From assembly GCA_003136095.1 (NCBI GenBank), contig PNBO01000088.1:16909-49622 (forward strand): a DNA stretch of 32,714 nucleotides, given 5' to 3'. The first letter of the stretch is position 1, and the number at the start of each line of letters is the position of its first letter. This document shows, piece by piece, positions 4,004 through 30,005 of this stretch. Under the pieces are notes generated by a model. The model had not been told where the DNA came from, did no database searches, and saw only the letters and a program-made list of their open reading frames with translations. Made by a program: the position numbers and the translations under genes. This DNA is from Myxococcales bacterium. GTDB taxonomy: Bacteria; Myxococcota_A; Polyangia; Fen-1088.

Positions 4004-5329
4004 CTACGGCCGCCAGTTGTGAAACCACAGGCGAAGGTTGGCGGTCGAGGAGGTGATGGCGAACTCGCCCCACACCGGCGCGAAGAAGATCGACATGGCG
4101 AGGGCCAGACCGATGTAGCCGGCGATCCACTTGCCGTGCTTGCGTTCGAGGTGCGCGGCGAGCCCGGCCAGCATGACGAGCAGGAAGGCGTAGCAGGGCA
4201 GGTAGTAGTGGCTGAAGGTGTAGTTGCCACGCGTGCCGCGGGTGGCGAGCCACGGGGCCATGAACGAGAACCAGCCGACCAGCATCACCAGCACCCCGCG
4301 TGTGGTCGACGAACCCAGCAGTGTCAGCCAGTAGCGACGGAAGCGCGCCCGCACGGCGACCACGGCCGTGGTGATGGGAAATGCCACCACGAGGAGGGTC
4401 GAGGTCGCCCACAGCACGAGATTGCCAACGCTCGACGAGTAGCGTGAGCGTAGCCCCGAGGTCGACGCCTTGATGACGATGGGGTGCATGAGGATCGGCC
4501 AGCCGTACCACGGCGAGGTCAGCTCGTTCTTGTAGTGGCCGAGATCCAGGTGGTGCTTGTAGAGGTCGATGATCACCTTCCACGTCGCCGTTGGGCTACT
4601 CGGCTTGCCCGTGAGGCGCAGGGCGCCCATCCAGACCAGGGTGTGCACGATGGGAATGATGCCGAGCCACAGAATGGAGAAGATGGACACCCGGCGCAGC
4701 ATGAGGAGGGCGACCGCCGCGGGAATGGCGGTCATGGCCCCGCTCCATTTGATCGAGGTCGAAAGCCCGATGAGCACCCCGGCGGCAATCACGCCCTTCC
4801 AGGTCCGCGCGGCGGCCGCGGCCACCATGCCCCACAACATGAAGGAAATCATCGTCCCGTCGAGCAGTCCCGAACGGGAGTAGGAGATGAAGAAACCGTC
4901 GGCCGCGACGAAGGCCGCCGCCATCCAGCCCGCGCGCTTGTTGCCGAAGATCAGGCGGCCGAGCCAATAGGCCAACAGCACGGTCTGCAATCCGAAGAGC
5001 AACGGCCCGAAACGCCAGCCCAGCGAGTTGTAGCCGAAGATCAACATGCCCACCGAGATGAGCAACTTGCCGAAGGGTGGGTGATCGTTGCTATCCGCGA
5101 TCCCGAGCGCGTAGTTGTGGGCGTTCTTGACGAAGGGCTCTTCGTCGAAGGTGAACCAGTTCGGCCACGGCACACCCTGGATGCGAATCAGGACCCCGCC
5201 CACGATCATGATGGACAGACAGACCGTGACGAAGCGTTCGGAGACCGGCATGGCCGCCCATGTCTGCCGCGCCTGCGCGAGCTTGCCGCGCAGGGCTTCC
5301 GTGAGGCCGTGAAGGGTCGGCAGCTTCAT
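4004..5329 (-). CDS. PMT-family (GT39-like) membrane glycosyltransferase
   Basis: 441 residues with many hydrophobic helices. Near the N-terminus, after the first membrane segment, come FTFDEEPFVKNAHNY (D62, E63) and DSNDHPPFGKLL (81-88). This combination of an acidic DE pair and a D.HPP.GK loop is typical of protein O-mannosyltransferases and related GT-C enzymes, which move sugar from a polyprenyl-phosphate donor on the outer face of the inner membrane. SRSGLLDG and HYYLPCYAFLL further on also fit. The ATG at 5329 overlaps the upstream stop as ATGA, so an earlier in-frame start at 5452 is unlikely. Translation is therefore probably coupled to the upstream single-pass protein, a candidate partner. 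Acceptor and sugar are unknown. Confidence 0.82.
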   Translation of the reverse strand: MKLPTLHGLTEALRGKLAQARQTWAAMPVSERFVTVCLSIMIVGGVLIRIQGVPWPNWFTFDEEPFVKNAHNYALGIADSNDHPPFGKLLISVGMLIFGYNSLGWRFGPLLFGLQTVLLAYWLGRLIFGNKRAGWMAAAFVAADGFFISYSRSGLLDGTMISFMLWGMVAAAAARTWKGVIAAGVLIGLSTSIKWSGAMTAIPAAVALLMLRRVSIFSILWLGIIPIVHTLVWMGALRLTGKPSSPTATWKVIIDLYKHHLDLGHYKNELTSPWYGWPILMHPIVIKASTSGLRSRYSSSVGNLVLWATSTLLVVAFPITTAVVAVRARFRRYWLTLLGSSTTRGVLVMLVGWFSFMAPWLATRGTRGNYTFSHYYLPCYAFLLVMLAGLAAHLERKHGKWIAGYIGLALAMSIFFAPVWGEFAITSSTANLRLWFHNWRP

Positions 5330-7601: not shown

Positions 7602-8531
7602 ATGCAAGGCTCGACCATCGTGTTGGCGGGAGCTAGCGGAAATCTCGGTGGGCGCATCGCGAGAGCCCTGCGCGACCGGGGCGCCAGCGTGCGGGCGCTG
7701 GTTCGCCACGAAACCCCACGAGAAAAGCTCGAGAGATTGCGCGAGCTCGGCGTGACGGTGGCCAGCGTGGACTTGCGGGACGCTGCCCAAGTGACAGGGG
7801 CATGCGCGGGCGCGGCCTGCGTGGTGTCCGCGCTGCAGGGATTGCGGGACGTGATCGTGGACGTGCAAACGATCCTGCTCGAGGCCGCGATCAAGGCCGA
7901 GGTGCCACGCTTCATCCCGTCCGACTACTCCATCGACTTCACCAAGTTTCCGCCGGGAGAGAATCGCAATCTCGATCTGCGCCGGGACTTCCACCGGCGC
8001 CTCGACCAGGCCGCGATAGCGGCGACCACGATCTACAACGGCGCCTTCGCCGACATGCTCACGGGGCAGATGCCGCTCATTCTCTTCCAGCTGCATCGAG
8101 TCCTCTGTTGGGGGAACGCGGACCAGCGCATGGACTTCACGACGATGGAGGACACGGCCGCCTTCACGGCGAGCGCGGCTCTCGATTCGTCCACGCCTCG
8201 CTTCCTGCGCATCGCCGGCGACGAGCTCAGCGCCCGGGAGCTGGCGGTGGTTGCCAGCGAGGTGACCGGGAAGAAGTTCCGCCTGTTGCGCCCCGGAGGT
8301 CTGGGAACGCTCGGCGCGCTGATCAAAGTGGCGCGCGCCTTCGCTTCTGGTGAGAAAGAGCTCTACCCGGCGTGGCAGGGCATGCAGTACATGCGCAACA
8401 TGTTCGACGGCCGGGCCAAGCTGGAACCGCTCGACAACGATCGCTATCCGGCGATCCACTGGGCGACCGCGCGCGATGTGCTCTCGGCATGTAGCCGATC
8501 AGGCCAAAAGGCGGGAAAACGATCGCGTTGA
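7602..8531 (+). CDS. NmrA-like NAD(P)-binding protein with a recombined C-terminus
   Basis: 309 residues, Rossmann fold. GASGNLGG (G10, G13, G16) binds the dinucleotide and VRALVR follows as the second strand. FIPSDYSIDFTK and TTIYNGAFADML are typical of atypical short-chain dehydrogenases of the NmrA/isoflavone-reductase group, which act as redox sensors or reductases. Homology to other copies in this window shows that the native end is near 8488: a 3' fragment at 19594-19706 reads the same and then stops after LSAR. Here the frame instead runs into a foreign segment and adds about 14 residues (SRSGQKAGKRSR). The last codons are therefore a recombination product. The core is intact and probably functional. 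Confidence 0.82.
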   Translation: MQGSTIVLAGASGNLGGRIARALRDRGASVRALVRHETPREKLERLRELGVTVASVDLRDAAQVTGACAGAACVVSALQGLRDVIVDVQTILLEAAIKAEVPRFIPSDYSIDFTKFPPGENRNLDLRRDFHRRLDQAAIAATTIYNGAFADMLTGQMPLILFQLHRVLCWGNADQRMDFTTMEDTAAFTASAALDSSTPRFLRIAGDELSARELAVVASEVTGKKFRLLRPGGLGTLGALIKVARAFASGEKELYPAWQGMQYMRNMFDGRAKLEPLDNDRYPAIHWATARDVLSACSRSGQKAGKRSR

Positions 8532-10864: not shown

Positions 10865-11104
10865 TCCAGGCGAGCTGGTCAACGGTGGTCTTGGCGGCGG
10901 GAAGGCACGGTGGGCGTGGTAGGCCGCGCGTTCGCTTCTGGCGAGAAAGAGCTCTACCCGGCGTGGCAGGGCACGCAGTACATGCGCAACATGTTCGACG
11001 GCCAGGGCCCGGCTCGACGAGCCGGAAAGGGGCGCGTGACAAGGTCGTCTGCCGGTCTCGCCTCGGGGGGAATGCTCAACTTCTACGCTCGAGAGGCCGC
11101 GTGA
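10841..11104 (+). pseudogene. NmrA-like paralogue with large internal deletion
   Basis: Starts MAPFKAIV like an NmrA-type N-terminus, then after about 25 unrelated residues rejoins the conserved C-terminal stretch AFASGEKELYPAWQG, QYMRNMFDG found in the intact copy (8336-8415). The frame stays open across the join, but the Rossmann core and most of the protein are gone, and the end runs into unrelated sequence. It is a remnant of a third NmrA locus. The following 76 bp to 11180 hold nothing recognisable. Confidence 0.65.
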
Positions 11105-18023: not shown

Positions 18024-18210
18024 GGTGCCTAATCGTTTCGAATGGGGTTTCTTCGTTCGAGAACCTCTAGCACACATCGCGTCACCGCGCCTCGGTGCTC
18101 GGCACCCCACCCATGCGGGCCGCGTCTCGCAGCTCCGGGCACCTCCGGCATCTCCTGGAAGGCGTGTCTCGACCACACGGCACAGTCTACCCCATCGCGT
18201 CCCCAGCTCG
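18024..18210. repeat. Interspersed block, copy A (about 190 bp)
   Basis: Starts GGTGCCTAATCGTTTCGAAT, includes a small hairpin (GTTTCT...AGAAC, 18047-18064) and CCGCGCCTCGGTGCTCGG, and ends CATCGCGTCCCCAGCTCG. Copies B, C and D have the same orientation. It lies just past the 3' end of an IS91-type transposase tail (read on the minus strand) and is probably the end of that element. Indels between copies argue against coding. Confidence 0.82.
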
Positions 18211-18220
18211 GGCGCTTTGA

Positions 18221-18283
18221 TCAGTTCACCCAGTCATCGCCGCCACCACCCGTCTCCCGGGGCGGGGGGCGGGCTGGGTGTAG
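18221..18283 (-). pseudogene. IS91-type transposase, C-terminal tail (copy A)
   Basis: Minus-strand reading ELHPARPPPRETGGGGDDWV then Asn and stop at 18221. The LHPARPPPR tail is typical of IS91-family (Y2, rolling-circle) transposases in this group, from memory. Only about 20 residues remain, joined upstream to the end of an unrelated gene. Confidence 0.55.
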
Positions 18284-18487
18284 CTCGCGATTGATAGCGG
18301 CCGCGGGTAAATCCCCCAGCACGTCGGCCTGATCGGCTATCCAATCGAACACGATGGACATGGCCCAACCTGGATGCTCGCTCCGTCCGGTCCATTCGCG
18401 GTAGGCCCAGCTCCAGATCCGGTCGCGAATCCGGCTGTACCAGAGGGTCTTCAAGGCGTCTTGTCCCAACCGCTGCTCGAAGTCGTC
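18284..18487 (-). pseudogene. 3' fragment of the 199-aa helical protein gene
   Basis: 204 bp matching 26523-26726 without indels. It encodes DDFEQRLGQDALKTLWYSRI and RIWSWAYREWTGRSEHPGW and ends inside LGDLPAAAINRE, where it joins the IS91 tail. The upstream part is lost; 18488-18555 is unassigned. Confidence 0.8.
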
Positions 18488-18555
18488 TCTCCCGCTGCTC
18501 TTGGGCCAGACGGTCAGCGTCGTGTAGTCGTCGGAGAATGTCCCATTGCTTCCGC

Positions 18556-19116
18556 CTACTTCTTGCAAGTCACCTCGAAGAGGGGCACCGGGCCTGGGCT
18601 GCCCGGCATCCTGGCCTCCATCTTGTGAACGAACTCCTTGTCACCCTTCTTCTCGAAGCTGTGCTTGGCGCTCATCTTGCCCATGAAATTCGAAACCTCG
18701 AGATCCCAGGTCAGCGTATCGCCCGACCAGCCCGTGCTGGTGCCGGTGACGTAACCGCCAGTGGACTCGAACTCGGCGCGAACGAACTTGTTGGATTGGG
18801 CCTCCCAGCCCCAGGTCCCGATCGCCGTGACCGCCATGGGGTAGTCCTTGGCCTTGTGCTCGGTGTAGATGAAGCTTTGCCAGAAGCCACCGAGCTCGTT
18901 CTTGACCTTGGCGGTGGCTTTGATCTTCACGGTCTTTCCCGGTCCCAACATCGCGGTGCCCGCGCAGGTCCAGCTGCCCACAAACATCTTGAGGGCATCG
19001 TTCTCGGCGGCCGGCTTGCTTGGGGGCGCGGGCGACTCCGGCGCCGCGGCCCAGGCCATGCCTGCCAAGACGGTCAGAAAAAGGGTCGTGGTGGCGAAGT
19101 GCTTGCTCAATCGCAT
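18556..19116 (-). CDS. Secreted DUF1579-like protein
   Basis: 186 residues. The start at 19116 is fixed by AGGAGG at 19121-19127, five bases upstream. Residues 1-23 are a signal peptide (TTTLFLTVLAGMAWA, cut before AAPES). The mature part begins with KMFVGSWTCAGTAML, then strands such as KVKNELGGFWQSFIYTEHK, GYVTGTSTGWSGDTLTWDLE and FVHKMEARMPG. This beta-barrel pattern (a G.W.C.G start, W...S and a closing heat-like strand) fits the DUF1579 family of unknown function. Two cysteines (WTCAG and EVTCKK) could pair. Probably periplasmic. It is flanked on both sides by copies of the interspersed block. Confidence 0.72.
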   Translation of the reverse strand: MRLSKHFATTTLFLTVLAGMAWAAAPESPAPPSKPAAENDALKMFVGSWTCAGTAMLGPGKTVKIKATAKVKNELGGFWQSFIYTEHKAKDYPMAVTAIGTWGWEAQSNKFVRAEFESTGGYVTGTSTGWSGDTLTWDLEVSNFMGKMSAKHSFEKKGDKEFVHKMEARMPGSPGPVPLFEVTCKK

Positions 19117-19282
19117 ACGTTCCTCCTGAGAACGGGTTGTCGATGACGGCGCAAACCCGCACTGCGTGCCCCCAAGATTGGAGCTTGTCGGGTTCGATCT
19201 CCCCTTCGATTCCCGACTTTGCGAAAGGATTCGCAACTTTGCCAGCAAGATTTCGACGAGCTGGTCCAGCCTCCAGCTTCCA

Positions 19283-19490
19283 GGTGCCTAATCGTTTCGA
19301 ACGGGGTTTCTTCGTTCGAGATCCTCTACCCGACATCGCGTCCTCGCGCCTCGGTGCTCGGCATACCACCCATGCGGGCCGCGTTTCGCAGCTCCGGGAC
19401 CTCCGGCAACAGCTCCGGGCACCTCCGGCATCTCCTGGAAAGCGTGTCTCGACCACACAGCACGGTCTACCCCATCGCGTCCCGAGGTCG
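19283..19490. repeat. Interspersed block, copy B
   Basis: Same block as copy A but with a 21-bp insertion that partly duplicates GCTCCGGG/ACCTCCGG motifs. The left boundary is again GGTGCCTAATCGTTTCGA and the right end is CATCGCGTCCCGAGGTCG. Confidence 0.82.
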
Positions 19491-19496
19491 CCTCCA

Positions 19497-19590
19497 TCAG
19501 TTGAGCCAATCTTCCGCGTCCCACGCCTCCCGGTCGGCCCCCTGGGACGGGCGCGTCGGGTGTAGCTCGGGCACGGCGGCAGGCAGATGC
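19497..19590 (-). pseudogene. IS91-type transposase, C-terminal tail (copy B, divergent variant)
   Basis: Minus-strand reading ARHLPAAVPELHPTRPSQGA, then DREAWDAEDWLN and stop at 19497. It is clearly related to but different from copy A, so it comes from a separate element of the same family. Its upstream end joins an NmrA 3' fragment. Confidence 0.6.
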
Positions 19591-19593
19591 CTG

Positions 19594-19706
19594 GCAACCA
19601 GATGCGCAGCATGTTCGACGGCCGGGCCAAACTGGAACCGTTCGACAACCATCGCTATCCGGCGATCCGCTGGACGACCGCGCGCGAGGTGCTCTCGGCC
19701 CGCTAA
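19594..19706 (+). pseudogene. 3' fragment of an NmrA-like gene
   Basis: Encodes QMRSMFDGRAKLEPFDNHRY and AIRWTTAREVLSAR, then TAA at 19704-19706. It aligns with 8384-8488 of the intact gene and shows where the family normally ends. It is truncated at its 5' side by the IS91 tail. Confidence 0.8.
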
Positions 19707-19799
19707 GGACGCATCGTCACGCGGCGATACGAGCCACGCGGGCATTCTCGCGATTGATGGCCGCCGCGGGCAGATCCCCCAGCACGTCGGCCTGGGCGC
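19705..19799 (-). pseudogene. 3' end fragment of the 199-aa helical protein gene
   Basis: Matches 26481-26573 (the stop region and the last residues NRENARVARIAA, read on the minus strand). It immediately follows the TAA of the NmrA fragment, so the two gene ends face each other. The rest to 19897 has no recognisable gene. Confidence 0.75.
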
Positions 19800-19897
19800 T
19801 CTAGCCCAAAGGTGCCGACTGAACAAGCGCTCGCCAGGTGACAGCGCTCGCCACGTGACCGCCTATCACATCGAGCTTGAAAAAGCTGGGCTGATCA

Positions 19898-22800
19898 TCA
19901 GGGTTGCACGTCAAATGCATCGATATATATCCACGCGCCGCAGGAGGCTGACTGCTTGGTTCCCAAGACAGTGAGCGTCAACGCGTGGGATCCGGCAGGT
20001 AATCCCGTGACGGTGTAGAGGGCCTGCTGCCAACCGCCGCCGCTCGCCCTATACGCATCCAATGTCTGAACGTTGCCGTCCACTTGCACCTGAGCCTGAC
20101 CACTACACGAATCCTGGGTTCCGATGACGCTGATCCCGGTGCCGTTGAAGGGAAGCCTCATGGTCACGCCTGCCGTCGCAGTCGCCATATAGGTGTTCGC
20201 GCTCGCGCGGCTATCGGTGCCAGTGTTCCAGTTATATTCAGTGGGTCCTCGCACGATCTGCGGGTCATCTTCTTCCAGCCGCGTAGAAGAAGCGATTACG
20301 TCTAATGCATCGACATAGATCCACGCGCCGCACGAGGCTGCCTGCTTGGTTCCCAAGACGGTCAGCGTCAACGTGTGGGATCCCGCAGCCAATCCCATGA
20401 TGCTGTAGAGGCTCTGCTGCCAACCGCCGCCGCTCGCCCTATACGCATCCAATGTCTGAACGTTGCCGTCCACTTGAACTTGAGCCTGACCGCTACACGA
20501 ATCTTGGGTTCCGATGACGTTGATCCCGGTGCCGTTGAAGGGAAGCCTCATGGTCACGCCTGCCGTCGCAGTTGCCATATAGGTGTTCGCGCTCGCGCGG
20601 CTATCGGTGCCAGTGTTCCAGTTATATTCAGTGGGTCCTCGCACAACGCGAGGGTCAGACTCTTCATACCTTGTGATTGATCCGCTCGCGCGAGGAGCGC
20701 TGATGGTCACGACAACCTGCGAGCGGCCGGTCGCACCGGCGTTGTCGGTGACGGTCAGGGTGACGGTGTACGAGCCTGCCTGGGAATACGTATGGCTACC
20801 TTGGACACCGATGCCTTGGCTGCCGTCGCCCCATTCCCATGCCCACGAACTGATGGAGCCGTCTAGGTCTCGGCTGCCGCTGCCGTCGCCGGCGACGGAG
20901 AAGTTGTTGACGGTGGTTGTCATTGAGGCGAGCGGCACCTCATTTGAGGAACCTGCGATGATGTCTGCGAGTTGCTTGCGGGCTGTCTCCCAGTCGTTCG
21001 GCTCCGTTGACCAGCTAATGTCGGTGAGAATCCAGGTGGGATCGTTAGGGTCGTTCACCCCGTATTCCCATGCGGCTTTGGGGACCATGGTGTTCACGAG
21101 CGACTGAACCGCCACGGGGTTGATGGCCGCTGCCATGGTCAAGTAGTCCACGTCCTGTAGGCCCCGCCGCCAGTGCTTGAGGCGCAGGCTGGCGAAGGGG
21201 CCGTTCACGCCGTAGGAGTCGCTCGGGAACAGCACGTCAGTCCCGGGATATAGAAGCACCCCATCCCCGTTGGAGTAGTTCCAGCCGGTTTCCCCCTTCA
21301 CGGGATCAACGGAGGCGATGCTGCCGAACGTGTGGGCGCTTTGGAAAACATTGATCTCTCCGGTGCCGCCTTGGTAATCGTTATAGTAGGTGGTCTCCCA
21401 GAAAAACCAGCGGTTGACCCTTAGTTTGTATTGAGCCCATGCCCGCTCTCGGAGGGCCACACCATCATCCTCAGTGGCGGTGGAACCCGTTGCGGGCCGG
21501 GTACCGTTGTACATGTAGAAGCGTTTGCGGCTGTCCTGGGTATAGCGATTCACCAAAGGTTGCCATTGTTCGAGGATGCCCACGCCCATGAAGGAGGTAG
21601 CGATGTCTAACGAAGGCGTTTCAGCGGCGGCCACCGTCAAGGGGATGGTCGACAACGACCTCAACTGTCCTCCCGGCCCGGGGTTGTTCAAGATCCAGTT
21701 CGCCCAGGTTTCGGTTTGAGTGGTGTCGGGCGACTCGTCTATTAAGTAGAGGAAATGTTCCGTAGCGGGGGAGTTCTGTTGGAACCAAGTCTCCCAGGCG
21801 TTCGTGTGTTGGTTCATGGCGGCCTGTCCGCCGGCTTTCCAGTTCCAAGAGCCGTAGGTCGCGATCGAATAGACGTTGTTGCCCGTGTTCACGCCGGGTC
21901 CGTCGTATCCGTTGGCGGCGGTGAAAAGGCTGCCGTCGAGGCGCGGCCCCCATTCCGGACATGGGCGATCCCCCGGAGAGACGCAGTCTCCTCCGTCTAC
22001 GTCTCCAATCAGGGAAAAGCGGTGGCGGTGGGCCAAAAGGAAATGCCGGTCCCGAATCGCTTTCCCCTTGGCGCCCGCCGCTGAATTGGGATCTATCCAG
22101 GTGGACCCCAAATAGCGGTGGTTGACGTTGGGGGAGGAGAAATACAGCATGGTTTTGGCGGACGGGGTGTCGGGTAGTGTGGCGTCGTAGACCTGCAACC
22201 CCACGGGGACATACGTAACCGTTCCTCCTTGCGAAACCGTTATCTGGCCCTGATAAAGACCGGCCACCGCCGTCTTCGGAATGTACACGTCGGCCCAAAT
22301 GCTCTGGTTCGACGCGGCAGGTATATAGAATGTGGGAACGAGCTCAAGCGGAACGGCGATCTCAGGGTAAAACTTATCGTGGTCAGGCCGGTCCTGCCAT
22401 CCACCTGATCCTGTATGCTCACCGATCAACGGCCGTCGGAAGCGAGCCGGCACGTGCCGTTCATCGTAACCGCCCCCTATAATGTCGTAAGACAGGGCGC
22501 TTAGCCCCTTGATCTGCAGGTAGCGAACATAGAACAACTCGATGTTTCGCCCAACGAAGTTGAACACCTGATCGCCGGAAACCGGAACCGATGCAATCGT
22601 GCTCCCATTCGGTCCGGCCAGTGATGAGAACGACACGCTGACGTTGTCGGCGCCCGCGAGGGCTTCGAGAACGAGGTTGCAGTTGACGACCTCATTCTTG
22701 AGGCCGAACAGTTTTATGCTCGTGCCGTCCCAAGCAGTGTTGATCACGTCCTTTTCGTCGCGGCTGACGCGAAGTTCATCGCGCGTGACCTTATCGGCTC

Positions 22801-22978
22801 CGTCGTTCACCCAGATGGCGGTGACTTTGCCCGCTGACAAGGAAAGCCTCAACTCACTCGCGACGACCTCTTTGCTTTTGTCGGGACCGGAGCACCCCAA
22901 GCCGGCTAGTGCGCCTCCGGCCGCGGAGAGGGACAGAAGGATTGCTGTGGTCACTACAAATCGAATGTACTCTTTCAT
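19898..22978 (-). CDS. GH123/DUF4091-like lipoprotein with PKD domain and duplicated C-terminal beta domains
   Basis: 1026 residues. The ATG at 22978 (GAGG upstream) gives a lipoprotein signal with Cys29 (LAGLGC). A beta N-terminal region is followed by a glycosidase-like barrel of the DUF4091/GH123 kind. FLYLIDESPD places an Asp-Glu pair at 414-415, the position and context of the catalytic DE of GH123 beta-N-acetylgalactosaminidases (family knowledge). LKHWRRGLQDVDYLTMAA is typical of DUF4091. A PKD domain follows (WAWEWGDGS, GSHTYSQAGSYTVTLTV), then two near-identical 130-residue beta domains (GPTEYNWNTGTDSRASANTY), probably carbohydrate-binding. Base composition is less GC-rich than its neighbours, with rarer codons, which suggests acquisition. 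It is probably a surface enzyme acting on amino-sugar polymers. Confidence 0.75.
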   Translation of the reverse strand: MKEYIRFVVTTAILLSLSAAGGALAGLGCSGPDKSKEVVASELRLSLSAGKVTAIWVNDGADKVTRDELRVSRDEKDVINTAWDGTSIKLFGLKNEVVNCNLVLEALAGADNVSVSFSSLAGPNGSTIASVPVSGDQVFNFVGRNIELFYVRYLQIKGLSALSYDIIGGGYDERHVPARFRRPLIGEHTGSGGWQDRPDHDKFYPEIAVPLELVPTFYIPAASNQSIWADVYIPKTAVAGLYQGQITVSQGGTVTYVPVGLQVYDATLPDTPSAKTMLYFSSPNVNHRYLGSTWIDPNSAAGAKGKAIRDRHFLLAHRHRFSLIGDVDGGDCVSPGDRPCPEWGPRLDGSLFTAANGYDGPGVNTGNNVYSIATYGSWNWKAGGQAAMNQHTNAWETWFQQNSPATEHFLYLIDESPDTTQTETWANWILNNPGPGGQLRSLSTIPLTVAAAETPSLDIATSFMGVGILEQWQPLVNRYTQDSRKRFYMYNGTRPATGSTATEDDGVALRERAWAQYKLRVNRWFFWETTYYNDYQGGTGEINVFQSAHTFGSIASVDPVKGETGWNYSNGDGVLLYPGTDVLFPSDSYGVNGPFASLRLKHWRRGLQDVDYLTMAAAINPVAVQSLVNTMVPKAAWEYGVNDPNDPTWILTDISWSTEPNDWETARKQLADIIAGSSNEVPLASMTTTVNNFSVAGDGSGSRDLDGSISSWAWEWGDGSQGIGVQGSHTYSQAGSYTVTLTVTDNAGATGRSQVVVTISAPRASGSITRYEESDPRVVRGPTEYNWNTGTDSRASANTYMATATAGVTMRLPFNGTGINVIGTQDSCSGQAQVQVDGNVQTLDAYRASGGGWQQSLYSIMGLAAGSHTLTLTVLGTKQAASCGAWIYVDALDVIASSTRLEEDDPQIVRGPTEYNWNTGTDSRASANTYMATATAGVTMRLPFNGTGISVIGTQDSCSGQAQVQVDGNVQTLDAYRASGGGWQQALYTVTGLPAGSHALTLTVLGTKQSASCGAWIYIDAFDVQP
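19911..20690 (-). repeat. 390-bp tandem duplication within the glycosidase gene
   Basis: Copies 19911-20300 and 20301-20690 are nearly identical over long runs (for example the stretch containing CGCTCGCCCTATACGCATCC). Each encodes one 130-residue C-terminal module. Few silent changes separate them, so the duplication is recent or maintained by gene conversion. Confidence 0.92.
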
Positions 22979-23460
22979 GGTGTGCGCCTCGCAGGAAAGC
23001 TCCACCCGTTCCCCGATAGCAGTTTTCGTGCCACCCCTCAGACGCACGCAAGCTTGGACGATTCCTTTCTAGACAGAGGAGGGGATGACCAATTCCATCA
23101 AAGTGGGGTGGGAAACCAGTCAATCCGATGGGCGGAAGACTTCGGGCCCCGGAACCGGCGGACCAACCCCGGCGCGGGGGAACGGCGGCAAACGCTGGCC
23201 GATTGGCAACGACGGATGGCACGGACGTACAGGGACTGTACCTTAGCCTGCTGGGACGACCGGGATTGGTCCCGGTGCCGCGCCAGATCGCCGGCCTTGC
23301 GAGGCGTGTGAAGGGCGGGATGGCGCGGGGGTATTCGAATTGATTGGAATGGCCCTTCATTGTGGTTGAGTCAACGGGATCGGCGCCTGCAAGTGCCGGA
23401 ATCTATGTGCGTCTTGGGATGGCCCGAAAGCTGCTGTAGCTAGGTTAGGTAGGTGATGCC
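22979..23460. other. Gap of about 480 bp, promoter-containing, no gene assigned
   Basis: Divergent spacer between the glycosidase and the small secreted protein. One short plus-strand frame (23128-23343, containing LYLSLLGRPG) faintly recalls a DUF4214 helix, but it has no ribosome site and is not called. Both flanking genes must start here, but no promoter boxes stand out. Confidence 0.4.
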
Positions 23461-23925
23461 ATGAAAGACCTGTGGAGAATGATGACGAGAAACGCTACGG
23501 GCGGGAAAGCACTGTTGGTCGCGATCATGCTGGGATTGCCCGGTGGTTCGGCCGAAGCGTACACCGGCCCGCTTTGGGCCCCGATCGTGGTGACGATCGT
23601 CCAGCGGGGGCAGTCGGGAGAGGTTGCGTGTTCGGTGTCGCAGGCCTCGCCACCGGCTGGCACGAACGAAATCCTCGTGCGCATCAGGGTGTCGCGAGAC
23701 AGGACCCCAAAGACGATCCTGCTTAGGACCACTTCCCGAGAAACGACCCTTGACGTGACGAACTCGCTGCCGCTGCTTGGCCAGTACGAGACCATCATCG
23801 ACCTTGAGAAGACCAATTGTGCAACCTCGGGAACCCTGCTCGTGGAGGTCGAGGGGGATCTTGAAACCAACACGGCCACCTGCCCTGGGATTCTTTTGCC
23901 CAAGGGCCTTACTTGCAATGACTAG
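23461..23925 (+). CDS. Small secreted protein of unknown function
   Basis: 154 residues. The N-terminus MKDLWRMMTRNATGGKALLV leads into a signal peptide ending LPGGSAEA, cut before YTGPL. The mature part of about 120 residues has alternating strands (WAPIVVTIVQRGQSGEVACS, EILVRIRVSRD, TILLRTTSRETTLDVT) and four cysteines (EVACSV, TNCAT, ATCPG, LTCND), consistent with a small disulfide-bonded beta domain. No family is recognised. The ATG at 23461 is one of two candidates (the other is at 23479). A GC hairpin follows the stop. No close operon partner is seen. Confidence 0.65.
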   Translation: MKDLWRMMTRNATGGKALLVAIMLGLPGGSAEAYTGPLWAPIVVTIVQRGQSGEVACSVSQASPPAGTNEILVRIRVSRDRTPKTILLRTTSRETTLDVTNSLPLLGQYETIIDLEKTNCATSGTLLVEVEGDLETNTATCPGILLPKGLTCND

Positions 23926-23927
23926 CT

Positions 23928-23947
23928 TGCACGTGCCCGGCCGTGCA
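23928..23947 (+). terminator. Hairpin after the small secreted protein
   Basis: TGCACG, loop TGCCCGGC, CGTGCA: a 6-bp stem 3 bp after the stop codon. There is no U-tract, so it is a weak terminator candidate. Confidence 0.35.
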
Positions 23948-24067
23948 CAAACGAGCTGCACGCTCTCCTCGGCCTAGTGAGTTTGGCATCCCGTGCGCAG
24001 CTACACGAAATTTCGGCGCCAACGAGGCGCTACGAACGGCGGACAGGAGCAATTGGGAAGGGAAGGA

Positions 24068-24709
24068 ATGAAGATGCAGAACGCGGCATATTGGAAGGGG
24101 TTGCGCCACATCGTACTTGGGGCAGCGGCGCTGGCAGGTGGCGCGTGGTTCCTCGGGGCGGCCCCTGGTTTGGCCAGTGAGGCAGGCTCTGAAGGCGGCG
24201 AGCCCCTGCCGAAGGAGCGTCGTCAGAGCGAGACCGGAGCCAATTCAAGGCGAGTGGACCGAGCGGAAGACATGATCGTCCTGCTTCACGAGGGCAACCG
24301 GATGGAGATCGAGGGCGCCGCGCTGGCACTGGAGAGGGGGCAGGCCGAGCGGGTGAAGAACTACGCTCTCCTGCTGACAAAGGAGCACCAGCAGTGCGAC
24401 AAACAGCTCATGGATTACGCGGACCAGAAGCAGTTCGACCGTCGGAGTTTCGAGGACGGGAAGCAAAAGGCGACCGACGGTCCGGTGGAGAGGCTGCGCG
24501 TGCGGCAGCCGCAGAACTTCGACCGCGCGTTCATCCTGGCCATGGTGCGGGAACAGGGCAAGATGATCGACGCGCTCGCGAGCACAATGCAGGATAGCCG
24601 CGACACCGACCTTCGCCGCCTGCTGGCTGGGCAGCTGCCGGTGCTCGAGAAGCTGAAGAAGGCGGGAGAGGCGATTCTCGCGCGCCTACCCGCCAACAGT
24701 GAAAGATGA
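24068..24709 (+). CDS. DUF4142-like (ferritin-like helical bundle) secreted protein
   Basis: 213 residues. The ATG at 24068 follows a purine-rich GGGAAGGGAAGG. The signal region HIVLGAAALAGGAWFLGAAP ends near GLASEA. The mature protein is helical: LLHEGNRMEIEGAALALERG, VKNYALLLTKEHQQCDKQLM, FDRAFILAMVREQGKMIDAL and RLLAGQLPVLEKLKKAGEAI. The E..H placement in helices 2 and 3 and the overall pattern match DUF4142, a periplasmic four-helix bundle of unknown role related to ferritin-like proteins. It stands alone; the downstream side is the repeat mosaic. Confidence 0.75.
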   Translation: MKMQNAAYWKGLRHIVLGAAALAGGAWFLGAAPGLASEAGSEGGEPLPKERRQSETGANSRRVDRAEDMIVLLHEGNRMEIEGAALALERGQAERVKNYALLLTKEHQQCDKQLMDYADQKQFDRRSFEDGKQKATDGPVERLRVRQPQNFDRAFILAMVREQGKMIDALASTMQDSRDTDLRRLLAGQLPVLEKLKKAGEAILARLPANSER

Positions 24710-24813
24710 CCACGGATCAACGATGTCAGCGAGCAGCGTCTTGCCGTTGCTGCGGACGTTGGTGTCCATGATTAAGAGGGGTGAGGGGCCTGTGCCTCGC
24801 CAAAATTCCGTCT

Positions 24814-24900
24814 GGCGCCTGATCGTTTCGAATGGGGTCTCTTCGTTCGAGAACCTCTCCCCTACATCGCGTCACCGCGCCTCGGTGCTCGGCAGCCCAC
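24814..24900. repeat. Interspersed block, copy C (truncated)
   Basis: The first 87 bp of the block (GGCGCCTGATCGTTTCGAAT to CGGTGCTCGG) are present. The right half is deleted, so the sequence jumps directly to the IS91-type tail. Confidence 0.8.
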
Positions 24901-24902
24901 TT

Positions 24903-25340
24903 CACCAAGTCATCGCCGCCACCACCCGTCTCCCGGGGCGGCGGGCGGGCTGGTGTAGCTCCGGCACTTCCGTGGGCAGGTGCATCGCGGTGAGGATTTT
25001 TTTGCGATGTCCTCGCTCTTGATAAGCGCGATGAGGTGCAGAGGAGACTGGCAGTTCTGATAGACGATCCCAAACCCGAACGTCCTTCGGAGAAGTTCCG
25101 ACCACGGGATAGACCTCGACTTACCAGCGGGCTTGCCCTTGTCGTCGGCGGCTGTGGGCTCGGTGGTCGCGGGAACGACTTGGTTTCGTCACCGACGACG
25201 GTCACCTCGCCATCGCCTGGGGCGGTGACGAGGGTGATGACTTTGCGGCGCTGGAGAAAACGCAGGATACGCTTGCTGGCTCTGCCCACGAGAGACTCGA
25301 TTTCCTCCTGCGTGGGCGCGGGCGCAGGTCCCTCGCTCAC
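24903..25340 (-). pseudogene. IS91-type transposase, C-terminal region with frameshifts (copy C)
   Basis: Reading the minus strand across frames gives PAPAPTQEEIESLVGRASKR, RILRFLQRRKVITL, then SPLHLIALIKSEDIAKK, ILTAMHLPTEVPELHQPA and RPPPRETGGGGDDLV. The order (helical arm, IAL..SEDIAKKIL..MHLP, ELHPARPPPR tail) fits the C-terminal half of an IS91-family Y2 transposase. One break lies at a run of seven A (minus strand; T7 at about 24998-25004). The normal stop is lost. Catalytic tyrosines would lie in the missing N-terminal part. Confidence 0.6.
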
Positions 25341-25341
25341 C

Positions 25342-25746
25342 GACTGGACATGGCAGAACTTTCGCCTGACCGCTGCCAGCAGCCTGGCCATCGACAAGGG
25401 GACGAGCCTGCCCGCGTCCCTGGTGGCGTTGCTCGCCAAGTTCGGCATCGACGGAGGTCAGAAAGGGGCGGCGCTCGATCTAGGGGCGATCGAATTCGAT
25501 CCGGACAATCCCAATACGCCGCTGGTCATCGACGTGGGCCCGCGGGACGGCGGCGCCAGCGAGGCCGTCCCGCCCTGGCCGATCCCCACCGCCGGGGACG
25601 GCGGCGTCTGGACCAACCCCGGCAGCGGCAGTGGCAAAAGCAGCGGGTGCGGTTACTCGCTCGCGGGCAAGAACGAGCCAACCGGCTGGGGTTGGTGGTG
25701 GGTGCTCGGTCTAGCCCGCACTCTTCATCAGCTGCGCTTGGGCTAG
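25342..25746 (+). pseudogene. C-terminal fragment of a beta-helix surface protein with MYXO-CTERM-like tail
   Basis: The frame has no credible start of its own. It encodes LTAASSLAIDKGTSLPASLV, KGAALDLGAIEFDPD and a Gly-rich spacer, then SSGCGYSLAGKNEP and a Trp-rich hydrophobic end. The SLAIDKGT...D.GA.E.D pattern is the usual end of parallel beta-helix (choice-of-anchor) proteins. The Gly-Cys plus hydrophobic end resembles a MYXO-CTERM-like anchor, although the final Arg cluster is poor. The 5' part has been replaced by the IS91 remnant. Confidence 0.6.
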
Positions 25747-26282
25747 CCGTTGTCCACGATGCCGCAGGTCCAGGCGGCAGTCGTGCTGCTTCTGAGTACG
25801 ACGCATGTGCACCCCCAGGGCACCCCGTCCGGCGCCGTGAAATTGCACTCTAGGCCGAGCGCGGAACAAGCTTGGCCACTTGCCCGATCCGTCAGGTTGT
25901 CGAACGAATCCGGCGCCGGGCAGATTGCACAAAGACCTGGACATGGGCCGGTCGTGTTTTGGCATCCACAATGGAGATACGGGGCGCAGGCCGCCTCGCA
26001 CTCGGCGAGCGATGCCAAGGTGTTTTGCGTGGCCTCGCAGCCGTCGATCGGCACGCACCTGCCTAGCGCTCCGTCGAGCGCATAGCGCTGCGTGGTCGTC
26101 GCGCAGCTTGCGGCGACCGGGGGCGCACAGGGCGGCTCTGGAAGGGGCACATTGATATAGATCGAAGTCTCGCCGCCATCGGCAATCTGCGTGGCTGCCG
26201 CGCCGTCGCGGGGCGGGCCGCTGACAGCGCACTGGGCTTCTGCCATAGCCACGATGAGAACCAAGGCCGGGCGTATCGACAT
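25743..26282 (-). CDS. Secreted Cys-rich protein with a Kunitz/BPTI-like domain
   Basis: 179 residues. The ATG at 26282 is fixed by GGAGG just upstream. The signal peptide is ALVLIVAMAEA, with the cut before QCAV. Cys52, 60, 76, 82, 95 and 99 have spacing C-7-C-15-C-5-C-12-C-3-C; Kunitz/BPTI domains have 8-15-7-12-3. The RY pair after the second Cys and the GC at the fourth Cys are also kept. The residue after Cys60, equivalent to the inhibitory P1 site, is Ala. A second Cys-rich region follows (CGCQNTTGPCPGLCAICP and QACSALGLECN). It may be a secreted protease inhibitor or binding module, rare in bacteria. Its 3' end overlaps the beta-helix fragment by 4 bp. Confidence 0.75.
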   Translation of the reverse strand: MSIRPALVLIVAMAEAQCAVSGPPRDGAAATQIADGGETSIYINVPLPEPPCAPPVAASCATTTQRYALDGALGRCVPIDGCEATQNTLASLAECEAACAPYLHCGCQNTTGPCPGLCAICPAPDSFDNLTDRASGQACSALGLECNFTAPDGVPWGCTCVVLRSSTTAAWTCGIVDNG

Positions 26283-26306
26283 GGTTACCTCCCTCCGGAA
26301 AGTGTC

Positions 26307-26470
26307 CAATCTCTTCCTCCGAGAACCTCTGCCCCCATCGCGTCACCGCGCCTCGGTGCTCGGCATCCCACCGATGCGGGCCGCGTTTCGCAGCTCCGGG
26401 CACCTCCGGCATTTCCTGGAAGGCGTGTCTCGACCACACAGCACAGTCTACCCCATCGCGTCCCGAGCTC
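26307..26470. repeat. Interspersed block, copy D (5' degenerate)
   Basis: Shares CGAGAACCTCT, CATCGCGTCACCGCGCCTCG, the ACCTCCGGCAT/CTGGAAGGCGTG stretch and the CCCATCGCGTCCCGAGCTCG end with copy A. The first part is degenerate. There is no IS91 tail here; the block joins the end of the 199-aa gene directly. Confidence 0.8.
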
Positions 26471-26492
26471 GCCTCGATCAAAGGACGCACAG

Positions 26493-27092
26493 TCACGCGG
26501 CGATACGCGCCACGCGGGCATTCTCGCGATTGAGGGCCGCCGCGGGCAGATCCCCCAGCACGTCGGCCTGGTCGGCTATCCAATCGAACACGATGGACAT
26601 GGTCCAACCTGACTGCTCGCTCCGTTCGGTCCATTCGCGGTAGGCCCAGCTCCAGATCCGGTCGCGAATCCGGCTGTACCAGAGGGTCTTCAAGGCGTCC
26701 TGTCCGAGCCGCTGCTCGAAGTCGTCGACCGCCTCGCGCAGGGCCAGCCAATTCTCCCACGCCGCGAGGGGATGACTTGCCGGGTTCGTTCGTTCCGCAT
26801 CGAGGGTTGCCAGGGTCCTGTCCACCGTCTGGTGAAGATGGTTTTGCACGGAACGCGACAGCTCCCCCACCAGCGAATCGGGTGGGTTGTCGGCCCCGGA
26901 CGGAGTCAGCAAGCTCCCGACGGCCACACATGCCAGATCCGTCAGCTCTTGCAGCACGGATGCCTTCACCGCCTGGGCCCGCGCGGCACCATTGCGCACG
27001 TCCAGCTCCAGGGCCTGGGCGTGCAAACGGGCCAAGGACTCGCCATCGAGTGCCTGCTGCCACGCGTGCGTGAGCGTGAGCACCTCCCGCAT
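26493..27092 (-). CDS. Helical protein of unknown function, source of repeated 3' fragments
   Basis: 199 residues, nearly all helical, no signal peptide or membrane segment. Notable stretches are LTLTHAWQQALDGESLARLH, LSRSVQNHLHQTVDRTLATL, EDWLAL-like WENWLALREAVDDFEQRLG and ALKTLWYSRIRDRIWSWAYR. I do not recognise the family. Its ATG has no convincing ribosome site, and the sequence upstream is unusual, so it may be the C-terminal part of a longer broken gene. Fragments of its 3' end recur at 18284-18487 and 19705-19799. The conserved reading frame in those copies shows the protein was once real. In the ancestral order it appears to have converged with an NmrA-type gene. Confidence 0.6.
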   Translation of the reverse strand: MREVLTLTHAWQQALDGESLARLHAQALELDVRNGAARAQAVKASVLQELTDLACVAVGSLLTPSGADNPPDSLVGELSRSVQNHLHQTVDRTLATLDAERTNPASHPLAAWENWLALREAVDDFEQRLGQDALKTLWYSRIRDRIWSWAYREWTERSEQSGWTMSIVFDWIADQADVLGDLPAAALNRENARVARIAA

Positions 27093-27611
27093 GGCGACGG
27101 CCTGGCCCCGCGCTGCCGGAAGAGCCGTTCATGGCTGTCCCTACGGGACCTAGGGCCTACACGCCCTGCCCCTGCCCCACGCGGTTTCGCCGCGCCCGTC
27201 GCCTGCCCGCGGACCACCGTTCTGGCAGAGCCGCGTCCTGCGCCGCCGCTACGGCGAGCCGCCCTACGCGGGCCAAGCGTAGGCGACGTCGAGGCAGCCG
27301 AGGCCGCCATGCCGGCTGCCCCTTCCGACCAGACCGCTCCCATCGGCCGGCGGAGAGGCCGGCATCTGCCCTGACATTGGAAATCGGCCCCTAGGAGGCT
27401 AGGTTTCCGTCGGAATTCGGCCCTATCCGGCCCCTCGGGGACACCTCCGGACATCGGTTACGAGGCTGCTACCGCGGTCAACACGCTCGGAGGGCTTTTG
27501 TACCGATTACGGCCCACCTGGACGTTCTGAGCCGGCAATCTGTTCGAAAGCTGTCACTTGTTGGCACTGCCGCGGTGGCAAGACGCTGAATCTTCGTGGA
27601 TTCTAGTCGGC
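27093..27611. other. Gap of about 500 bp without an assignable gene
   Basis: Very GC-rich with many short palindromes (for example CCTAGGAGGCTAGG near 27391). Open frames exist on both strands but are Arg/Pro/Ala-rich with no domain pattern. It is probably degraded coding or IS flank. Confidence 0.4.
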
Positions 27612-28226
27612 ATGCCTGTTGCGTTCTCCCCGACCATGGCCTCTCGACTGCTGACTGTGGTCTTGTTCGTTTTGCCGGCCACTGCCCTTGCCACCGAGTC
27701 CTCGGACGGCAGCGAGGGGAGTTCGGCACGAGCGCCTTTAGCGGTGGGTGCTTCCGATGCATACCCGCGACAACATGGCGTGTTCGCGAACCTGGGGGTC
27801 TTCTCGGCCGTGGGCTTCGGTGGGCTCACGTACGCCTACGCCGTGTCGGAGAACTGGGCCGTCGAGGCAGGGCTGGGGCTTGGGCTCACCGGAGTACAGC
27901 TATCCTTGATGCCGAAGCTGGCCTTCGGACGAAACCACCGATTTGTCGTGGGTCTTGGCCCATCGGTGGGAAGCATGCTTGATGGGCAGAACACCACTAG
28001 CCTCTGGCTCAACGGCGATCTCGGGTACGAGTTTCGGGACGACAACGGGTTTTCGGTCTCTTTCGTCGGTGGTTTCACCAAAGGCATTGCCGGCTGCATT
28101 GCGAAAGAGTGCCGGCCTGATGGCATCGTTTGGCCCGATGATGGTGGCTCCAAAGCGGTGTTCAGCGGGCGCGCTCAGGACTACCTGGAGCCCCAAGGAC
28201 GCATCATCGTGGGCGTGTGGTTCTAG
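27612..28226 (+). CDS. Outer-membrane beta-barrel-like protein
   Basis: 204 residues from ATG 27612 (27636 is an equally possible start and would give a cleaner signal peptide). The signal RLLTVVLFVLPATALA is cut before TESS. The mature protein shows amphipathic, Gly-rich alternating strands: GVFANLGVFSAVGFGGLTYA, NWAVEAGLGLGLTGVQLSLM, RFVVGLGPSVG, LWLNGDLGYEFRD and FSVSFVGGFTKGIAG. It ends in GRIIVGVWF, an aromatic C-terminal residue typical of outer-membrane barrels. Two cysteines (AGCIAKEC) sit in a loop. Probably an eight-strand-type barrel; ligand unknown. The 28227-28416 gap has only a short match (TGTGCCTCGCCAAAA) shared with 24791-24805. Confidence 0.7.
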   Translation: MPVAFSPTMASRLLTVVLFVLPATALATESSDGSEGSSARAPLAVGASDAYPRQHGVFANLGVFSAVGFGGLTYAYAVSENWAVEAGLGLGLTGVQLSLMPKLAFGRNHRFVVGLGPSVGSMLDGQNTTSLWLNGDLGYEFRDDNGFSVSFVGGFTKGIAGCIAKECRPDGIVWPDDGGSKAVFSGRAQDYLEPQGRIIVGVWF

Positions 28227-28416
28227 TATCCCTTGTGCCTCGCCAAAATCCGGTCCGCGGCAGGGGACGTCCTAGTGGTGATGGCCATGAGGGAGAATCG
28301 GTGGGTATCGGCAGGCGGATGCAGTCCGGAGAGCCATCAACCAGCAGATCGCAAGTGGGCGAACCCCTGGCAGGCAGATCTTGGCTACCGTCGCCTGGTT
28401 CGGACGCCGGTTCCGG

Positions 28417-29199
28417 TCAGGCCGCAAGGCGCGCGTAGCGATGATGGAGACCGCCGACTTCGGGAAGCTCGACGATCTTGCCCACACTGGGCGGTTGGAT
28501 GGCCCTCGGATCCGGCGCGTCCTTGCCGAGCGAGAGATGAGTTCGCGATTTGTGATAGTAGGAAAAGTATCTGGTCAGAATCCGACGGAGATGTTGCCCA
28601 CCGAGGACAATCACGTGATCGAGACACTCTCGGCGTACGGATCCCACAAGGCGTTCAGCATAGGGATTCTGCCAGGGCAAGTGCGGTGCGGTGAGCACCT
28701 CGTCGGTGCCGATGCCCTCGACGCGACGTCGGAACTGCTCGCCATAGATGCCGTCGCGGTCGCGAATCATGCACCTGGGCGCAGTGTTCTCTGGGAAGGC
28801 TTCGACGATCTGCTGGGCAGTCCAGAGGGCGCTGGGATGCTCGGTCACGTTGAAGTGGACCACGCGTCGGCGCTCATGGACCTGAGCCAGGAAGACGAAG
28901 AGCACACGGAAGGTTGCGGTCGGCACGGTGAAGAAGTCGATCGACGCCAGCGAGCCGAGGTGGTTGTCGAGGAGGCTGCGCCACGTCTGGGAGGGAGGCT
29001 TGCGCGGCCTTGTGGGGATGAAGCGGGAGACGCTTCACTCGCTGATGACGATGCCAAGCTTGAGCAACTCGCCATGGATCTTCGGCGCGCCCCAGGTCGG
29101 ATTGGCCTCGGCCATCCGGCGTATGAGCTGCTTGACTTCGGTCGAAACGTCGCCCTCCGTCGGCGTGCGGGAGCGGGATCTTCGTAACCAGCTCACCTA
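28417..29199 (-). pseudogene. Second IS transposase (rve core), 5'-truncated and with an in-frame stop
   Basis: The minus-strand reading begins SWLRRSRSRTPTEGD and continues VKQLIRRMAEANPTWGAPKI, HGELLKLGIVISE, then TGA at 29035-29037 where the family normally has Arg. In the same frame it continues SVSRFIPTRPRKPPSQTWRS, LASIDFFTVPTATFRVLFVF (first Asp), MIRDRDGIYGEQF (second Asp) and NPYAERLVGSVRRECLDH (Glu). The C-terminus is intact to 28417. The catalytic triad is complete, so one nonsense change plus 5' loss inactivates it. It is a different type from the IS at 14941-16240. Confidence 0.85.
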
Positions 29200-29432
29200 C
29201 GGGTGTCTCGGCACCGCCGGCAGCGTGGCCGCCCGGCAGCGGCGCCAGGCTAGGGGCGCCGCGGTGGCCCCGACCGATGGGGCGGAGCACGCGGGCGGCG
29301 GCGGTCTCGTGCCTCAGCCGGCGGGCGATGGCCGCGGGTTCGCCGCGGCCCACTCGCGGGGCGTGAATAGCCCCGGGGCGGCGGCGACCTCGGCGGGCGA
29401 GGCGCGCAGCACGCTGAGGAGGTACTCCTAAA
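29200..29432 (-). pseudogene. Unassigned gene fragment between the IS and the truncated Hsp70 gene
   Basis: One minus-strand frame reads EYLLSVLRASPAEVAAAPGL, FTPREWAAANPR, then after a frame change AIARRLRHETAAARVLRPIG. It looks like the C-terminal part of a real protein broken by a frameshift near 29330. I do not recognise the family. It is fused to the end of the Hsp70 fragment. Confidence 0.4.
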
Positions 29433-30005
29433 GCGGCGCACGCGCAGCCTGCCCTCCTGGGTCTTGAGCAGCGACACGTCGAGAGTTCCACCGCCCAGAT
29501 CGAAGACCAGCCACATCCCCTCGGGTTCCGACCGCCAGCCCGCGGCGATGGCACTGGCGATGGGTTCTTGCATGAGAGCCACCTCGGAAAGTCCCGCCAG
29601 CTTCGCGGCGCGCATGGTCGCGTGATTCTGCGGCAATTCGATCAGCGCGGGCGTCGAGATCACCGCCGCCCTGGGCAGAAATCCCAACCCGTCACGCGCG
29701 TCGGCGAGCAAGGAGGCGATGACCTTGGCCGACAGCTCCTCCGGCAGAAGCTCTTGCTGAGCGGCCGCGAACGGCAAGCGATCGCCGGTCCCCATGAGCC
29801 GTTTGAATTCTCCCCAGGTGTTGGCGGGGTCGGATTCGAGAAAACCATAGGCTTTTCGCCCGGTGACGATTGCGCCGCGAGCGTCCATGCGCACGACCGA
29901 TGGGGTCAGATTCTCACCCAAACTATTGGGCACGACGACAACCGAGTCACCGTCGAAGACCGCCAAGGACGAGTTACTCGTGCCAAGATCGATGCCAATG
30001 AACAT
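29250..30005 (-). pseudogene. Truncated Hsp70/DnaK-like ATPase domain
   Basis: Starts at ATG 30005 (GGTAGG upstream). The first 189 residues, to about 29438, are clear Hsp70 N-terminal domain: FIGIDLGTSNSSLAVFDGD (phosphate-1 loop), NLTPSVVRM, AVISTPALI, LMQEPIASAIAAG and VFDLGGGTLDVSLL (phosphate-2 loop). After EGRLRV the homology stops and the frame runs through unrelated Arg/Pro-rich sequence to 29250. The adenosine motif, the rest of the ATPase domain and the substrate domain are missing. It is a broken member of the non-housekeeping DnaK-like group. Loss appears linked to recombination next to the IS. Confidence 0.82.

Follow-up and report, generated by a model that had tools for sequence, protein, structure and literature searches.

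The mobilisation of resistance genes is attributed to ISCR elements. According to a study of ISCR1, transposition of an ISCR had yet to be demonstrated by experiment (PMC6218425). One-ended transposition is established for IS801, where it accounted for more than 26% of events (PMC3189936). A 2025 paper placed ISCR28, together with sul4, in Myxococcota (PMC12772301), so that relatives found in this phylum bear on ISCR origins. The lineage described here, with its intact and deleted members, defined ends, adjoining tetranucleotide and excess of right ends, offers natural, non-clinical material for testing one-ended mobilisation.

In the window (the whole stretch of DNA analysed, 32,714 nucleotides), a repeat search performed on the region with no prior knowledge recovered de novo four repeats in the same orientation, designated copies A to D (Table 1). 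The earlier note had listed the same four copies in one orientation, and all of them are real, with the start of copy D moved from 26307 to 26312. The repeated block is almost certainly the non-coding 3' end (the right, ori-side end) of a chromosomal element of the IS91/ISCR type belonging to a soil Myxococcota lineage, and this right end is probably the one at which replication starts. The origin-side assignment, first made from the window, was right, the same end being found behind transposases elsewhere. The lineage is a new ISCR-like one within the IS91-superfamily elements in Myxococcota, ordinary in kind and useful in detail. The window itself carries the transposase as C-terminal remnants only, and a Pfam scan of these tails alone gave nothing useful, meaning that the identity of the element came only via its relatives.

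Across the family loci a common order was observed, in which the transposase stop is followed after 16-53 bp by box 1 (GATGGGGTAGACTG) and then, about 100 bp further, by GGTTCTC..AAACCCC..TTCGAAACGCTTAGGCAC. The same boxes lie behind transposase tails in about 20 loci examined and behind one full-length transposase (L139), the right end measuring about 190-210 bp and containing box 1 as well as a terminal box, which ends in CTA(G/T) and is followed by a GNNC tetranucleotide. The L139 protein, of 529 aa, is encoded in a congeneric genome (G001:C240, JADGRD010000641.1) and presents PELHPARPPP near its C terminus with the same kind of right end behind it, as had been anticipated for an intact member; L140 and L142, from the same bacterial family, have long open frames, and the other loci are partial. 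Upstream of the transposases a left end was recognized, formed by GCA(A)C, about 12 bp and CTTGCCGACAACCCTCC..GGAGG, and an HMM of this end gave matches upstream of transposases or deleted derivatives at many loci, finding none in the window (best E 2.2). Deleted derivatives retaining both ends were also identified (L102, about 745 bp; L098, about 510 bp; L211, about 490 bp). As in the IS91/ISCR superfamily, the right (ori) end is located 3' of the transposase, a protein of about 500 aa, and a distinct left (ter) end 5' of it. A MITE was rejected because the two ends are unlike each other and form no terminal inverted repeats, the window copies having one end only. The genome from which the window comes is a fragmented MAG (456 contigs), where the element persists mainly as orphan right ends and a transposase of this lineage was not found in intact form. 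An open-frame IS91-type transposase (G000:C98) was set aside, since it belongs to another subfamily that lacks this right end.

The full-length transposase of L139 and the transposases of L142 and L089 matched both PF04986 (HUH transposase) and PF14319 (IS91 zinc-binding). When compared with NCBIfam models, the ISCR clade Ia model reached 315 bits versus 88 bits for IS91, the clade Ia (NF052416) scores of 315.5, 294.2 and 259.7 bits remaining below its cut-off of 925 bits. In a plasmid comparison, the annotated relatives included ISCR1 and ISVsa3 (ISCR2), at about 36% identity over about 90% of the protein. A single tyrosine was found where LCRYILRPP aligned with LCRYISRPA of ISCR1, in an alignment that contained no canonical IS91 protein. 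ISCR proteins are therefore the closest transposase relatives, sharing the one tyrosine, and, judged from its sequence, the enzyme is ISCR-like and not a classical two-tyrosine IS91. The comparison with ISCR elements drawn in the earlier note was apt, the transposase being closest to ISCR clade Ia; of its description of an IS91-like Y2 enzyme, the superfamily assignment holds, but the alignment presents one tyrosine, as in ISCR1, instead of two. Among GTDB genomes, most of the named relatives come from fen MAGs labelled Myxococcales, with Proteobacteria, Terriglobia and Deltaproteobacteria labels also represented.

The likeness to ISCR1 and ISVsa3 comprises the HUH transposase with its zinc-binding domain and one tyrosine, and a right end that lies about 200-250 bp past the stop, terminates in CTA(T/G) and includes a (C)GTT(T/C)GAA-like stretch. 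The right-end termini of ISCR1 (..GGTTTATACTTCCTATACCC), ISVsa3 (..GGGCGTTTATTCTTCCTATACG) and a Pseudomonas element (L229, ..GGGCGTTTGAACTTCCTATACG) all lie 200-250 bp past the stop, and the right end of the present lineage, exemplified by ..CTGTTCGAAACGACTAGGCAC, resembles those of ISCR1 and ISVsa3 in layout and, in part, in its letters. The lineage differs in residing in environmental Myxococcota chromosomes and not on resistance plasmids, in its terminal sequence (CTAGGCAC/CTATGCTC versus CCTATAC), in scoring under the clade cut-off and in that no resistance gene cargo was seen.

Among 53 distinct right junctions, TA was invariant at -3/-2 and the next four bases read GNNC in 47, with conservation dropping beyond (GCAC in 27, GCTC and GCGC in 7 each, GGCC in 2, and GGGC, GAAC, GGTC and GGAC in 1 each). 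A short conserved target had been suggested as something to look for at the insertion sites, and a target-like GNNC was indeed found, which could equally belong to the element end: no empty site was recovered at the cytochrome gene, where the genus g6 orthologues have no shared synteny, so that target and element end are not separable here. The GNNC beside the outer end appears to resemble IS91/IS801 targets, those of IS801 being GAAC, GGAC, CAAG and CGAC, and one IS801 one-ended fragment began with GCAC (PMC3189936). Further features shared with IS801/IS91 are the unlike ends, the position of the GNNC-like tetranucleotide beside the right one, the occurrence of right-end fragments without left ends and the occasional fragments of neighbouring genes. 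Two differences separate them: the aligned motif of this lineage has one tyrosine where IS91 is Y2, and its tetranucleotide is mostly GCAC, GCTC or GCGC as opposed to GAAC or CAAG. Helitrons also present rolling-circle ends with captured gene fragments adjoining. No helicase domain was matched in the transposases scanned, and the fragments lie here on the side away from the ori, the arrangement seen with IS91 read-through, in contrast to Helitrons.

Table 1. Positions of the right-end copies and associated features in the window.
Feature	Position	Strand	Description
Copy A	18024..18210	-	Complete right end (ori side), ISCR-like element; outer limit 18024
Copy A box 1 (ACGCGATGGGGTAGACTG)	18183..18200	-	Kept 16-53 bp past the transposase stop at many family loci
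Copy A transposase tail, last ~20 codons (ELHPARPPPRETGGGGDDWVN, then stop)	18221..18283	-	In-frame fusion to gene X fragment
Gene X 3' fragment behind copy A, 204 bp	18284..18487	-	94% to 26523-26726
Copy B	19283..19490	-	Complete right end with 21-bp internal duplication; right-end HMM E 5e-9
Copy B transposase tail (..RHLPAAVPELHPTRPSQGADREAWDAEDWLN, then stop)	19497..19590	-	IS91-type
NmrA-like gene fragment at copy B, 98 bp	19602..19699	+	93% to part (8391-8488) of gene 7602-8531
Gene X 3'-end fragment behind copy B, 94 bp	19705..19798	-	95%
Copy C	24814..24900	-	Outer 87 bp of right end; right-end HMM E 5e-8
Copy C transposase remnant, C-terminal part	24898..25329	-	Decayed, frameshifted, internally deleted
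Copy D	26312..26471	-	Right end without outermost ~26 bp; no transposase tail
Gene X, 199-aa hypothetical protein	26493..27092	-	3' part recurs in fragments at A and B

The right-end HMM matched copy A at 18065-18025 (E 5e-11). The link to transposase tails described in the earlier note holds for copies A, B and C, each immediately 3' of an IS91-type tail (minus-strand stops at 18221 for A and 19497 for B), but copy D follows a hypothetical gene. In copy C the inner part, including the box 1 region, is deleted and the right end is joined directly to the transposase tail. The sharp boundary expected at the outer side, (G)GTGCCTAA, was found in copies A, B and C as well as in most of the copies elsewhere in the genome, the flanks beyond being different. 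Near this end the sequence of a stem-forming GG(G)TT..AACC(C) is conserved; the small hairpin proposed there is, however, weakly supported, as 10 DNA folds did not outperform shuffled sequences (z -1.45 to +1.44). An Rfam scan matched no RNA family. A second fragment of the NmrA-like gene 7602-8531 is found elsewhere in the window, at 10910-11104.

Frames run through some copies of the block, as expected at high G+C, yet its being a coding exon of a gene family is next to impossible: in several subfamilies it comes after the transposase stop, and close copies differ by one-base indels (A versus L095, 180/179 nt; A versus D, 161/160 nt), for which this interpretation was rejected. Another function could be conceived for box 1, since the ori region of ISCR1 contains two outward promoters (PMC6218425). 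Several copies of box 1, including solo ones, present TAGACT with RTG after a gap of 7 bases, which would suit an outward promoter and ends kept for driving neighbouring genes; most copies lie nevertheless behind a transposase tail, and such a role is improbable. For the same reason, their position after transposase stops, a host-wide leaderless promoter was dropped as the main interpretation of box 1.

A search of the whole genome with copy A found at least 17 places, with E values in the window of 2e-93 for copy A itself, 3e-63 for D, 3e-60 for B and 2e-28 for C, and many further copies are present in related genomes of the same bacterial family. Solo copies of the terminal box alone, of 42-45 bp, were also seen (G000:C84:3887-3928, L012; G000:C276:802-846, L013). 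L149 carries two right ends as a direct tandem with a spacing of 48 bp (oriented positions 4520 and 4568), and at L095 the last 16 bases of the right end are repeated near 2725, as though the tetranucleotide next to a right end already present had served a second element.

In three congeneric genomes, one query combining left and right ends, five of each kind and each 98 bp long, a set chosen after right ends had already been noticed, yielded 34 right and 8 left ends (34:8). An equal split gives p = 7e-5 under the assumption of independent copies, which is not fully the case. Left ends resemble one another more closely than right ends do (mean local score 35.6 versus 27.0), so that detection should favour them. 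The excess fits a spread led by the right end.

In a sister species (G001), the site beyond the cytochrome gene to the left of copy A is occupied by the same right end, which identifies copy A as an orthologous insertion (L103). The G001 ortholog retains the outer 99 bp only, followed by about 80 bp and then by the window sequence from 29889 on, meaning that the intervening 11.8 kb (18122 to 29889) are absent from G001 at this site. The GH123-like gene and its neighbour (19792-24212) are found in G001 across the cytochrome gene, on the other side, with a right end 4.3 kb away whose outer flank is different. The G001 junction of 24212 with 16248 (G001:C237) cuts into a DUF4142 gene; these joins are provisional, G001 being a fragmented MAG. 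The gene fragments and shifted segments are marks of repeated rearrangement around right ends.

In the favoured model, the transposase would nick at the right end and the element would be copied by rolling circle, with the right end alone probably needed in cis. Full elements would then decay, leaving in the window three right ends with transposase remnants and one without, which now border a mosaic of gene fragments. What varies on the inner side of the copies would stem partly from one-ended read-through transposition and partly from subsequent deletion or from recombination among the copies.

Each component of this mix might also suffice by itself. The earlier note had proposed one-ended, ISCR-like mobilisation. 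In such a scheme, copying would start at the right end and continue past the transposase into neighbouring sequence to stop at arbitrary points, each copy sharing the right end and carrying gene X, perhaps also the DUF1579 or GH123-like genes, as passengers. The proposal is plausible but unproven, deletion and recombination after insertion explaining the mosaics equally well, and as the full account it is a real possibility whose chances are judged somewhat below even. The 34:8 ratio, the IS801 precedent and the 3' end of gene X, of differing lengths behind the right end in three copies, argue for it, as does the GH123-like segment, which lies behind a right end in both species with different outer flanks and, in G001, terminates within the DUF4142 gene. 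On the other hand, the far junctions at copies A (..GGTC/GACGAC) and B have no clear GNNC start of the IS801 type, and natural IS801 fragments of P. syringae were mostly judged to be rearrangements (PMC3189936). Moreover, the stretch that separates the right end from gene X bears different internal deletions in A, B and D, which shows that a single donor was not simply copied.

The opposite extreme, in which complete elements were inserted and then eroded by deletions and homologous exchange, with right ends left by chance, comes close to an even chance of being sufficient. The frameshifted and internally deleted transposase of copy C and the mixed junctions of A, B and D are what it would produce, and the joint in G001:C237 could represent a tandem duplication or another segment rearrangement in place of a clean insertion. 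Random erosion, however, predicts orphan left ends in about equal number, and left ends are about fourfold rarer. Going beyond the favoured mix, it is rather unlikely that a living lineage related to ISCR spreads in Myxococcota mainly as right ends and that every right end serves as an accretion border, with passenger fragments stacked there in the same orientation by successive one-ended events that built up the 11.8-kb island.

Other features of the island were recorded. At 19908-20597, the GH123-like protein contains two tandem segments of about 300 bp, 93% alike and with a spacing of 390 bp, which is a recent domain duplication. A small protein encoded at 25743-26309 gave a weak match to the Kunitz/BPTI domain, unusual in bacteria, just under the Pfam cut-off. 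Finally, a sequence of about 70 bp (27139-27211) with a CGCGG(T/C)TTCGCCGCG palindrome occurs at dozens of places in three congeneric genomes, and a piece similar to it lies within transposase tails, in frame at L034 and out of frame at L026 and L033.
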